A stretch of 64,000 nucleotides of DNA from Candidatus Planktophila dulcis (GTDB lineage Bacteria > Actinomycetota > Actinomycetes > Nanopelagicales > Nanopelagicaceae): positions 1,178,001 through 1,242,000 of the forward strand of contig NZ_CP016777.1 of the NCBI RefSeq assembly GCF_002288225.1. The letters are read 5' to 3'. Positions 29,137-45,815 of this stretch are shown here, piece after piece (positions within the stretch are counted from its first letter, which is position 1; every line of letters starts with the position of its first letter). The notes below the pieces were generated by a model. That model was not told the origin of the DNA and did not search any database. It worked only from the letters and a program-made list of their open reading frames with translations. The position numbers were made by a program, and so were the translations under genes.

Positions 29137-29952
29137 CTAGATAGCTGATTCGAAGGCCTGAACGCCGCGCCAACGGCTCACAAGACGCTCATATCCCTGT
29201 CCTGCAACTGATCCATCCCCTGCCGAGAGTCCAGACAAGCTAAATGCCACATCTTCAATAGATGAATCTTCATTAATTCCATCAAGGCCTGCTGCGCGCA
29301 GTGATGAATCGAGATAGGCAGCTAACCCACCGTAATCGAGTTCCACCAGTGATTGGGGATGAAAGAGTTCAAGCCAATCAATCATATTTTCAATCTCTTG
29401 CTCGACAGGGCCTTGCCCAAATGCACCTAACACAATTTCGTGGGATGCAAGTGAGCGCTCACGCGCCTTTGCCATCGTGGTGCGAGCAAAAGAATAAGGT
29501 CCATCATCATCTTCTCCACGCACTCGCTCATCGGGAGTGAAGATGGAGAACCAGCGTGGAGGAATAATCCAATTTTCGGTAATGATGTGGGGAACGCGAT
29601 CTTCCAATAAATCAACGCCGGTGGTAATTACCTCTTCGAGTGATGGTGGAATAAAAAATGGAGTAATCGATGATGGAAGTGATTCCTTGAAATCATCCAG
29701 TGCTGCCCAGCAACGAGTTGCAGTCGACCATGGTGAGACATAACGAATGCCATTGATGTCGAGAACATGTGCTCCATCAGGGCGAACTGCTGGTGGTTCA
29801 GGAAAAACTAAACGGCGGAGTGCGAGCGCCTGCTCCTCTTTGCGTGAATCGATATTTGCATCAATATTCTGCCAACGAATTCGGTCGACAGGTTCAAATG
29901 CAGAAAGTGGTTCGTAGATACGAAGGGATGCAACGTACGGGGTTGGTCTCAC
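29137..29952 (-). CDS. Conserved-looking protein of unknown function beside bldC
   Basis: A 271-residue soluble protein with no signal peptide or membrane segment. It is rich in Trp and Pro in the first two thirds (SPWSTATRCWAALDDF, ENWIIPPRWFSIFTPDERV), and ends in an acidic/Gly region and a SGLSAGDGSVAGQGYERLVSRWRG helix. I do not recognise a catalytic motif. It starts with GTG overlapping the DUF3073 stop as GTGA, so the two are translationally coupled, and it lies upstream of bldC in the same direction. Confidence 0.8.
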   Translation of the reverse strand: MRPTPYVASLRIYEPLSAFEPVDRIRWQNIDANIDSRKEEQALALRRLVFPEPPAVRPDGAHVLDINGIRYVSPWSTATRCWAALDDFKESLPSSITPFFIPPSLEEVITTGVDLLEDRVPHIITENWIIPPRWFSIFTPDERVRGEDDDGPYSFARTTMAKARERSLASHEIVLGAFGQGPVEQEIENMIDWLELFHPQSLVELDYGGLAAYLDSSLRAAGLDGINEDSSIEDVAFSLSGLSAGDGSVAGQGYERLVSRWRGVQAFESAI

Positions 29953-30125
29953 GCTCGTGGGATGTAATTACCTTCAGCAAAGGGATCGTCATCATCCTGA
30001 TTCTGCTGATTAGGAACATCACCGTGGAGTTCCTTGGTGAGGCGATCGAGATCCATCTCTTGAGAGTTGTACTTCAAATCGCGAGCAACCTTGGTTTGTT
30101 TTGCTTTTGCACGGCCGCGACCCAT
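29949..30125 (-). CDS. DUF3073 small protein
   Basis: A 58-residue protein found by reading the minus strand. It begins MGRGRAKAKQTKVARDLKYN and continues DLDRLTKELHGD, an acidic DDDDP run and FAEGNYIPRA. This is the actinobacterial DUF3073 family; function is unknown, with a basic N-terminus and acidic C-terminus. AGGAGG lies at good spacing before the ATG. Confidence 0.88.
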   Translation of the reverse strand: MGRGRAKAKQTKVARDLKYNSQEMDLDRLTKELHGDVPNQQNQDDDDPFAEGNYIPRA

Positions 30126-42433: not shown

Positions 42434-43468
42434 TTACTTAAGTAGTGATGTGCCAGTTGAACGAAGATCTTCACAAGCAACGCCAACACGTGCAGCGATT
42501 CCTGCTTCAGCAGCCTTACCCCACGCACGTGGATCGTAAGCCTTCTTATTTCCCACTTCGCCATCGATCTTAAGAACGCCGTCGTAGTTCTTGAACATAT
42601 GCTCAACAACTGGGCGAGTAAATGCATACTGAGTATCTGTATCGATATTCATCTTGATAACACCGTAATCAAGTGACTCGCGGATTTCTGTAAGAAGTGA
42701 GCCTGAACCACCGTGGAATACGAGATCCATTGGCTTGCTTCCTGCAGGAAGACCAAGCTTTTTAGCTACAGCTTCTTGGAGAGTTGCAAGAATCTTTGGC
42801 TGAAGAACAACGTTTCCTGGCTTATAAACACCGTGAACGTTTCCGAATGTTGCTGCCACCATGTAGCGAGCATTGGCATCGTGTCCAAGAGTTTCGATTG
42901 TAAGAAGTGCATCTTCAGGAGTTGAGTAGAGCTTCGCATCGTGCTTTGCCTCGATGCCATCTTCTTCTCCACCGACAACGCCGATTTCGATTTCAAGAAC
43001 TGTGCGAGCTGCAACTGACTTATCTAGAAGTTCGCGAGCAACCTTCATGTTCTCTGGCATATCAACTGCTGATCCATCCCACATATGTGAGCTAAATAGT
43101 GGTTGCTTACCTTCCTTAACGCGCTGCGCACCGATTTCAAGAAGTGGACGCATGAAACCGTCGAGCTTCTCCTTGGGGCAGTGATCTGTGTGAATACCGA
43201 TATTGACGTTGTAATTCTTTGCAACAACGTGTGCAAATTCTGCGAGCGCTACTGCACCATCAACCATGTGCTTAACAGTTGAACCTGAAGCGTATTCAGC
43301 GCCGCCCCATGAGAATTGAATGATTCCATCTGACTCTGCTTCTGCGAATCCACGGATTGCACCAATGATGGTCTGCGAAGATGAAACGTTGATTGCTGGG
43401 TATGCAAATGCTCCGGCCTTAGCGCGGTCCAACATTGCTGCATAAACTTCAGGGGTTGCTATTGGCAT
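42434..43468 (-). CDS. fbaA: Class II fructose-bisphosphate aldolase
   Basis: Zinc-dependent cleavage of fructose 1,6-bisphosphate in glycolysis, or the reverse in gluconeogenesis. The 344-residue form starts at MPIATPEVYAAML, behind GGGAG; a start four codons earlier overlaps that ribosome site. Zinc-site motifs include IGIHTDHCPKEKLDGF, EIEIGVVGGEEDG, FGNVHGVY and the VFHGGSGS loop. Confidence 0.95.
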   Translation of the reverse strand: MPIATPEVYAAMLDRAKAGAFAYPAINVSSSQTIIGAIRGFAEAESDGIIQFSWGGAEYASGSTVKHMVDGAVALAEFAHVVAKNYNVNIGIHTDHCPKEKLDGFMRPLLEIGAQRVKEGKQPLFSSHMWDGSAVDMPENMKVARELLDKSVAARTVLEIEIGVVGGEEDGIEAKHDAKLYSTPEDALLTIETLGHDANARYMVAATFGNVHGVYKPGNVVLQPKILATLQEAVAKKLGLPAGSKPMDLVFHGGSGSLLTEIRESLDYGVIKMNIDTDTQYAFTRPVVEHMFKNYDGVLKIDGEVGNKKAYDPRAWGKAAEAGIAARVGVACEDLRSTGTSLLK

Positions 43469-43480
43469 TGTGACTCCCAA

Positions 43481-43617
43481 GTCAGTGACTAGAACTGGTG
43501 TAAACGCTCTTGACGCACCGTTGGGTCTAAGTGAGGCTTACGCCTAATCCAACCACCTACCTCCGCGTATGAAAAATCGGCACACTCAATACGCGAGAGG
43601 AAGGGGTCTTTCCCAGG
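43481..43617. other. Gap between fbaA and the small peptide gene
   Basis: No gene is supported in these 137 bp. On the minus strand there is a short hairpin AGGC-GTAA-GCCT and an SD-like GGAGGTAGG not followed by a plausible ORF. It probably holds the fbaA promoter and leader, but no -10/-35 pair stands out. Confidence 0.4.
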
Positions 43618-43719
43618 CTATGGGTGGAGGGTCTTCTGCAGGAAGGCGATCAGGCCGGCGATGAGGGCTGGATTACTCAACACCTTGAGCAAGATGGCCA
43701 GGAAAGCTGCGATTGTCAT
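43618..43719 (-). CDS. 33-residue hydrophobic peptide
   Basis: A short ORF read by hand. The peptide starts MTIAAFLAILLKVLSNPALI and ends AFLQKTLHP; 33 residues, strongly hydrophobic with two Lys and one Pro-containing kink (NP) in the middle. An unusually good ribosome site (AAAGGAG, 5-6 nt before the ATG) and a clean stop support translation. It could be a single-pass membrane peptide, a type I toxin-like peptide, or a leader; I recognise no family. It lies 149 nt upstream of fbaA and divergent from acs. Confidence 0.6.
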   Translation of the reverse strand: MTIAAFLAILLKVLSNPALIAGLIAFLQKTLHP

Positions 43720-43856
43720 TTTTCTCCTTTCGAAATGTTCATATGTGTGAAGGTGCGCATTATTGGCAGATTAAGAAATAGAGAAATGAGCATTTGCACT
43801 CATTGTTGATAACTAATCCCTTTAAAAAGAACTCCTTCAACGGTAATCTGCTTCGC
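43720..43856. promoter_or_regulatory. Divergent control region of acs and the small peptide, with an inverted repeat
   Basis: AATGAG-N8-CTCATT at 43785-43804 is a perfect 6-bp inverted repeat centred about 62 bp before the predicted acs start site. A TAATCT -10 element is at 43844-43849, 7 nt before the acs ATG at 43857. The repeat position fits an activator site; the regulator is unknown. Confidence 0.45.
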
Positions 43857-45815
43857 ATGGCTAATGACTCAATCGAAAATCTCTCTACAGAGACCCGCAC
43901 CTTTGCGCCAAGTGCGGCATTTACTGCCCAGGCAAATGCACAGGCAGCTCTCTACGGTGAGGCGGAGAAAGATCGATTAGCGTTCTGGGATAAGCAAGCA
44001 GAAGCTTTAATCTGGGAGAAGAAGTGGGATAAGACCCTTGAGTGGGAATCTCCTTATGCCAAATGGTTTGTTGGTGGAAAACTCAATGCAACAGTCTCAG
44101 CACTTGATCGCCATATTGCAGAAGGCAATGGCAACCGCACAGCTTTTCACTTTGAAGGCGAACCAGGCGATACTCGAACAATTTCTTACACACAATTACT
44201 AGCCGATGTCAGCAAAGCGGCCAACGCTCTAACATCAATTGGAATTAGTTCTGGTGATCGAGTTGCCATCTATATGCCACTAATCCCTGAAGCAGTTGTT
44301 GCGATGCTTGCCTGTGCACGTATCGGTGCTATTCACTCCGTTGTCTTCGGTGGATTCTCTGCTGACGCACTCCTGTCTCGTATTCAAGATGCTGATGCAA
44401 AGTTAGTTATCACTGCAGACGGTGGATTTAGAAAGGGTGCAGCCTTTGCACTCAAGCCAGCAGTGGATGATGCTCTTAAGGGCAAGACCAACGTTGCTCA
44501 CGTACTGGTTGTAAAGCGCACAGGACAAGAGACTGCCTGGGTTGAAGGTCGTGATCTCTGGTGGCACGATCTCGTTGACCCACAAGCTTCAACGCACACA
44601 CCTGAATTCTTCGATAGTGAGCACCCACTCTTTATCTTGTATACATCAGGTACAACAGCTAAACCCAAGGGAATTTTCCACACAACAGCTGGTTATTTAA
44701 CCCAGGCTGCATACACACATAAAGTTGTCTTTGATATCAAACCAAGTAGCGATGTCTACTGGTGCACAGCAGATGTTGGTTGGATTACTGGCCACTCCTA
44801 CATGGTTTATGGCCCACTGATTAATGGTTCAACACAAGTGATCTATGAAGGTACGCCTGATACTCCCCACAAGGGACGCATGTTCGAAATCATCGAAAAA
44901 TATGGCGTCACTATTTTGTATACAGCTCCCACTCTGATTCGCACATGGATGAAGTGGGGAGATGAATTTCCTAATAAATGTAATCTCTCAACGCTTCGTC
45001 TTCTTGGCTCTGTTGGTGAACCGATTAACCCTGAAGCATGGATGTGGTATCGCCAAGTAATTGGTGGAGATAGATGTCCTATCGTCGACACATGGTGGCA
45101 GACAGAAACTGGCGCCATCATGATTTCACCGCTGCCAGGAGTTACCGCAACTAAACCAGGTTCTGCAATGAAGGCACTTCCTGGAATTAGCGCACAGGTT
45201 GTCGATGACAAAGGTGTTGCAGTACCGAATGGACATGGTGGTTTTCTTATTCTTGATAAGCCATGGCCATCGATGTTGCGCGGTGTGTGGGGCGAAGATG
45301 AACGCTATAAAGAGACTTACTGGTCACGCTTTCCTGGCATCTACTTTGCGGGAGATGGTGCAAAGCTCGATGGCGATGGCGCAATCTGGTTGATGGGCCG
45401 CGTTGATGATGTGATGAACATTTCTGGCCACCGCATCTCAACGACAGAAGTTGAATCTGCGCTGGTCTCCCATGAAGCAGTTGCAGAAGCAGCTGTCGTG
45501 GGTGCTGCAGATGCGCTCACAGGTCAAGGCATTGTTGCCTTCGTTATCTTGCGTGGTGGCGTTGCACATGCTGATGGTGATCACTTGATAAAAGAGCTAC
45601 GCGATCACGTTGCCAAAGAAATTGGTGCCATCGCAAAGCCACGTCAGATAATGGTTGTGAACGAACTTCCTAAGACTCGAAGCGGCAAAATCATGCGCCG
45701 TTTACTTAAAGATGTTGCTGAAAACCGAGCTGTGGGAGATGCAACAACATTGGCAGATCCCAATGTGATGAAGCTGATCTCAGAAGGCTTGAAGTCTTCT
45801 AAAGACGAGGATTAG
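43857..45815 (+). CDS. acs: Acetyl-CoA synthetase
   Basis: Activates acetate to acetyl-CoA through acetyl-AMP. The 652-residue protein has AMP-binding motif ILYTSGTTAKPKGI, YWCTADVGWITGHSY, DTWWQTETGAIM, and the C-terminal KTRSGKIMRRLL with the Lys that is acetylated in homologues. The chosen start (MANDSIENLS) is preceded by TAATCT at 7 nt and no Shine-Dalgarno, so a longer frame from 43794 is rejected. Its end overlaps the convergent CvpA gene by 17 nt. Confidence 0.96.
   Translation: MANDSIENLSTETRTFAPSAAFTAQANAQAALYGEAEKDRLAFWDKQAEALIWEKKWDKTLEWESPYAKWFVGGKLNATVSALDRHIAEGNGNRTAFHFEGEPGDTRTISYTQLLADVSKAANALTSIGISSGDRVAIYMPLIPEAVVAMLACARIGAIHSVVFGGFSADALLSRIQDADAKLVITADGGFRKGAAFALKPAVDDALKGKTNVAHVLVVKRTGQETAWVEGRDLWWHDLVDPQASTHTPEFFDSEHPLFILYTSGTTAKPKGIFHTTAGYLTQAAYTHKVVFDIKPSSDVYWCTADVGWITGHSYMVYGPLINGSTQVIYEGTPDTPHKGRMFEIIEKYGVTILYTAPTLIRTWMKWGDEFPNKCNLSTLRLLGSVGEPINPEAWMWYRQVIGGDRCPIVDTWWQTETGAIMISPLPGVTATKPGSAMKALPGISAQVVDDKGVAVPNGHGGFLILDKPWPSMLRGVWGEDERYKETYWSRFPGIYFAGDGAKLDGDGAIWLMGRVDDVMNISGHRISTTEVESALVSHEAVAEAAVVGAADALTGQGIVAFVILRGGVAHADGDHLIKELRDHVAKEIGAIAKPRQIMVVNELPKTRSGKIMRRLLKDVAENRAVGDATTLADPNVMKLISEGLKSSKDED

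Follow-up and report, generated by a model that had tools for sequence, protein, structure and literature searches.

The 33-codon frame lying between the divergent acs and fbaA genes of Candidatus Planktophila dulcis raises the question of whether so short an ORF is a gene at all and, if it is, what its hydrophobic product could do. In the window (the whole stretch of DNA that was analysed, 64,000 nucleotides), the preliminary description reported a complete ORF at this place, divergent from acs and upstream of fbaA, about three quarters hydrophobic, with two lysines and a central N-P, and named no strand. The genes of the locus are the following:

43618..43719, minus strand: the 33-aa microprotein ORF (ATG at 43719, 33 codons encoding MTIAAFLAILLKVLSNPALIAGLIAFLQKTLHP, stop TAG)
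43857..45815, plus strand: acs, acetate-CoA ligase, the divergent neighbour (ATG at 43857; NCBIfam TIGR02188 / PRK00174, above cut-off)
42434..43468, minus strand: fbaA, class II fructose-bisphosphate aldolase, the downstream neighbour (Pfam PF01116, NCBIfam TIGR01520)

The frame is complete, on the minus strand, 5' of fbaA and on the same strand as fbaA, and A/I/L/M/F/V/G/P account for 25 of its 33 residues, in agreement with that description. Comparison of the peptide with PHROGs, the PDB, and NCBIfam returns no match. DUF5326 (PF17260), the sole Pfam family appearing for it (E 0.15), is ruled out, since it scores 12.8 bits where the cut-off is 27. The Rfam scan of the window reports tRNA and SRP RNA only, and the titles and abstracts of the open-licence literature, a limited negative, return nothing on the peptide or on small proteins of its order. 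Functional predictions are reported to be missing for most small proteins (PMC11364881).

Of 118 genomes of the same genus (Ca. Planktophila records) that carry this fbaA, 106 have a homologous ORF at the locus, five give a profile match only (G185, G239, G280, G010, and G036), and three are without a call (G205, G251, and G275). In the last four (G014, G028, G202, and G215), acs and fbaA stand close together and the ORF is absent; the peptide is therefore not essential. In one further genome, G269, the peptide is present without an fbaA match, which brings the own-genus genomes of the selection set to 107, and in the sister genus g35 the peptide is found in all 19 genomes with fbaA. Outside the genus, a first search of 60 genomes gave nothing stronger than weak matches. 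The profile search of the order matched 141/296 genomes at E <= 0.1, many of the weak matches being spurious (e.g., L072, L073, and L075, elsewhere on the genome), while in a class-wide sample the 17 matching genomes out of 296 all belong to the same family. By name, most of the matching records are MAGs of actinobacteria, Ca. Planktophila limnetica and lacus, or the isolates IMCC25003 and IMCC26103. Separately, MAG contigs titled Bifidobacterium breve (L201, L202, and L205) carry a Planktophila-type locus, and their labels are probably wrong. Every confirmed homologue stands beside acs and/or fbaA, and in their gap when both are on the contig. The gene is single-copy and vertically inherited, and the viral contigs, phages, and plasmids searched hold no copy of the peptide. 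Joint loss of the peptide and fbaA was set aside as evidence: in the incomplete MAGs inspected, acs too is often missing.

The preliminary description had proposed to look for the frame at the same place in relatives and to compare synonymous with non-synonymous change. In 49 independent pairs drawn from the 107 own-genus and 19 g35 genomes (peptide identity at least 70%, equal length), dN/dS is 0.099, with 477.7 synonymous changes over 1256 sites and 182.3 non-synonymous changes over 3607; a laxer set of 52 pairs gives 0.110. Changes at the three codon positions number 156, 51, and 446 (a separate run), the five other frames have dN/dS values from 0.229 to 5.05, and identity is 0.872 in the ORF versus 0.742 upstream and 0.757 downstream, in sets that, like those used below for charge and moment, box counts, residues by position, and the P/D/S/TXXXG count, include one misassigned ORF (long-family locus L105). 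The 0.229, more than twice the value of the ORF, comes from one antisense frame and plausibly reflects codon-position geometry. A dN/dS of 0.099 means that selection acts on the peptide itself, which must therefore be translated. The frame thus passes the proposed comparison, and the further claims of a really translated and overlooked peptide of membrane type gain support from this conserved, unannotated ORF under purifying selection. The microprotein is a genuine, overlooked, and unannotated gene that matches no named family. A strongly selected gene absent from family libraries marks a direct and testable gap in the biology of these bacteria, and more than 100 variants found in nature, four genomes that have lost it, and several candidate replacements offer a resource for asking what a 33-residue membrane peptide needs.

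The family of this peptide, hereafter the short family, comprises 100 distinct peptides of 32-38 residues, none of which contains Trp or Cys. The pattern [KR]x3[NSTA][PAQ] occurs in 99 of them and [KR]x4P in 87. When the 99 anchored peptides are compared, the anchor is Lys in 98%, followed by N/S/T at +4, Pro at +5 in 85%, and Leu at +7 in 93%, and polar residues return every three to four positions in a polar/apolar alternation. K12 and the N-P hinge are the hallmarks of the microprotein. AlphaFold, given 22 sequences, predicts a helix at residues 3-15, a kink, and a second helix at 17-31 (mean pLDDT 88.6, pTM 0.43). Mean net charge is +2.7, acidic residues are almost lacking, no signal peptide is obvious, the best 19-residue hydropathy is 1.92, and the hydrophobic moment reaches 0.59 versus 0.40 in shuffled sequences. 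Helix prediction, charge, hydropathy, and moment together suggest that the peptide is membrane-associated, and it combines the coding selection and the helical hydrophobic design expected of a membrane microprotein.

The signals around the ORF are the following:

43724..43730, minus strand: Shine-Dalgarno sequence AAAGGAG, read from the sequence, 4 nt upstream of the ATG
43759..43764, minus strand: putative -10 element AATAAT (AT..T) of the peptide's own presumed promoter, at a fixed place in relatives
43804..43812, minus strand: conserved TTATCAACA box in the interval from acs to the peptide, identical in 16/16 close relatives
43497..43585, minus strand: conserved non-coding block between the peptide and fbaA, with the near-invariant core GTGGTTGGATTAGGCGTAAGCC

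A strong Shine-Dalgarno sequence precedes 4 of the 58 gene-size ORFs of the window and 2 of the 37 ATG ORFs of 28-60 aa outside them, which agrees with the earlier remark that such a site is unusual for this genome. Across 121 genomes, it reads AAAGGAG or AAAGGAGG in 58 and AAAGGA in 31, and nine have none of the listed motifs; the mean unpaired probability of its region, which bears on sequestration by mRNA structure as in type I toxin systems, is 0.48. The other small ORF of the window with a strong site, at 29949-30125 on the minus strand, starts with MGRGRAKAKQTKVARDLKY and presumably resembles DUF3073. In the peptide subgroup beginning MTLITFLSYL (L013, L014, L095, L150, and L256), the site is weak or absent, and these peptides may be translated from leaderless mRNA. 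Across 16 aligned close relatives, the AT..T hexamer keeps a fixed position ~40 nt ahead of the ORF, and the sigma-70 promoter scan of the window returned no match for a peptide promoter. The box, in the form TTATC[AC]ACA, occurs in 74/126 loci versus 7/6300 shuffles and in 29 genome copies, including copies right at the contig ends; we take it to resemble a DnaA box. The block downstream of the peptide has no Rfam match, and alifold gives no consensus RNA structure for it. It probably represents the promoter/leader of fbaA, and fbaA probably has its own promoter since the block persists where the peptide is absent (L099). The block with its GTGGTTGGATTAGGCGTAAGCC core is shared across the family, and a similar one precedes purA where fbaA is missing (L209).

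We favour, at a probability of roughly 0.55, the reading that this ORF encodes an amphipathic membrane microprotein belonging to the core of the lineage, expressed independently and modulating a putative partner. It takes as its starting points the observed conservation, coding selection, location, and helix-hinge-helix pattern of the prediction. From its own putative promoter and an unusually strong ribosome site, the gene would yield a cationic, cysteine-free peptide of 33 residues, predicted to fold into two amphipathic helices joined at the N-P hinge. This peptide would sit in or on the inner membrane, where the narrow polar stripe formed by K12, S15, N16, Q28, and K29 would most likely bind either a membrane protein or the surface of the membrane, and the bound partner would thereby be modulated. 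Among the roles initially proposed, namely membrane modulator, type I toxin, and membrane-active signal, the modulator thus seems the better fit and the toxin is weakened; toxin, secreted peptide, and acs-specific regulator all have lower odds than the partner-modulating microprotein.

The other genera of the family have different hydrophobic peptides of 34-54 aa, led by Shine-Dalgarno sequences, in the same slot. A long family of 48-54 aa with a conserved SN.G motif is found in g25, g26, g33, and g34 (51/296 genomes) and has a dN/dS of 0.091 (11 pairs); in the long-family loci examined, acs and fbaA are both present in 30/30, and the ORF passed the filter on Shine-Dalgarno sequence and length in 26/30. 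A hydrophobic ORF with such a site lies 5' of acs in g32 (39-40 aa), g31 (44-45 aa), g27, g36 (46-53 aa), g39, and g40, and g38 provides a candidate that is less certain, with purA at a distance of 1.1 kb. In g28, g29, g30, and g37, whose acs does not adjoin fbaA or purA, no such ORF is found at either place, in some cases with ~400 bases upstream only; the acs locus may therefore matter more than the words "independent gene" imply. The gene downstream of the slot is purA in g31, g27, and most g32, fbaA in g39, g40, and some g32, and a class I aldolase in g36. In g36 (L211, L213, L216, and L247), the position taken in other genera by class II fbaA is occupied by this class I fructose-bisphosphate aldolase, an unrelated enzyme that has apparently displaced it there.

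Profile comparison against 500 shuffles each supports kinship with the short family for g32 (0-4/500), g39, and g40 (0/500), and does not support it for g27, g31, g36, g38, and the long family. Homology between the short and long families was rejected, with an hhalign E of 0.095 and a negative profile test (run on 13 of the 25 distinct long peptides; the best of them was still reached by 10/500 shuffles). Position and design are thus widely shared, with common descent shown for part only. It is a tentative suggestion that the Nanopelagicaceae keep an acs-fba/purA slot for one function, filled by mutually unrecognisable peptides through complete sequence turnover between genera. Within this suggestion, and just as tentatively, the slot would hold peptides of four types (32-38 aa, 39-45 aa, 46-53 aa, and SN.G 48-54 aa), with size range, charge, and amphipathic design kept constant. 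If the slot is indeed kept in this way, the peptide may be a membrane component found throughout this lineage of the most abundant freshwater bacteria.

Among the alternatives, an unlikely one, although it survives best, is that of a type I toxin, a small hydrophobic peptide that is silenced by an antisense RNA and, once released, permeabilises or depolarises the membrane. Size, hydrophobicity, a helix with a Pro hinge, and a strong Shine-Dalgarno sequence all match what PMC8309996 and PMC7472228 describe for such toxins, and the g36 peptides, whose homology to the short family is unsupported, contain PXXXG (SPIFRG) and, close to the C-terminus, a Trp. However, the intergenic region has neither direct nor inverted repeats, the scan of the window reports no intrinsic terminator (hairpin-like sequences are seen by eye 3' of the ORF in some relatives), the structure of the window transcript does not exceed that of shuffles (z +0.87), and the 5' UTR would be short. 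Members of the Fst/Ldr family (PF13955) resemble the microprotein in their ~30-35 residues, single hydrophobic helical stretch, and mid-helix Pro. They are described as having a conserved Trp, Val in the prototype, between the helix and a highly charged C-terminus, and, in the majority, P/D/S/TXXXG in the membrane helix (PMC7472228). In contrast, the 100 distinct short-family peptides contain no Trp and PXXXG in 8 cases, P/D/S/TXXXG occurs in 14/101 peptides, about one charged residue is found in the last seven, and the locus shows no repeat or antisense signature. The PF13955 profile gives no match, with 0/21 own-genus genomes above the cut-off, a weak control since 0/14 control genomes exceed it too. 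With no antisense signature, no Fst/Ldr signature, and a single-copy, vertically inherited gene without mobile copies, a type I toxin is conceivable but unsupported.

It is rather unlikely that the peptide specifically regulates acetate/Acs metabolism, under joint control with the divergent acs. Its case rests on acs being the constant neighbour in g31, g32, g27, and g36 while the downstream gene changes, and on the conserved TTATC[AC]ACA box between the two genes. Strict linkage to acs is nevertheless contradicted by g33, in which the peptide adjoins fbaA and acs is elsewhere, and by several g34 loci, in which the acs match begins ~1.1-1.2 kb from fbaA and the peptide is next to fbaA only.

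Slightly less likely still is a secreted or surface-active cationic amphipathic peptide, acting in the manner of a leaderless bacteriocin or as a signal. The charge of about +2.7, the strong amphipathicity, the scarcity of acidic residues, the lack of an obvious signal peptide, and the very different peptides that fill the slot in other genera would suit it, but the neighbours are acs, fbaA, and purA, with no adjoining exporter or immunity gene, and selection within the genus is strongly purifying rather than diversifying. A leader peptide whose translation controls fbaA by attenuation, as its place immediately ahead of fbaA, in the same orientation and with a conserved block between, might suggest, is close to excluded, since the next gene is fbaA, a class I aldolase, or purA depending on the genus, the block outlives the peptide in G014 and lacks consensus RNA structure, and the whole peptide is under amino-acid selection; the position upstream of fbaA is thus true of this genome and incidental.

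The partner-modulating membrane microprotein can be compared with two kinds of known systems. KdpF, AcrZ, and MgtS are regulatory small membrane proteins, and SpoVM-type peptides are amphipathic membrane peptides. By description, the former share with the Planktophila microprotein a single short hydrophobic peptide, a fixed locus, and a presumed membrane partner, whereas no partner gene adjoins the Planktophila ORF. The SpoVM type comes from another group of organisms, and the Planktophila peptide is far more hydrophobic; by description, both are nonetheless very short amphipathic helices kinked at a proline.
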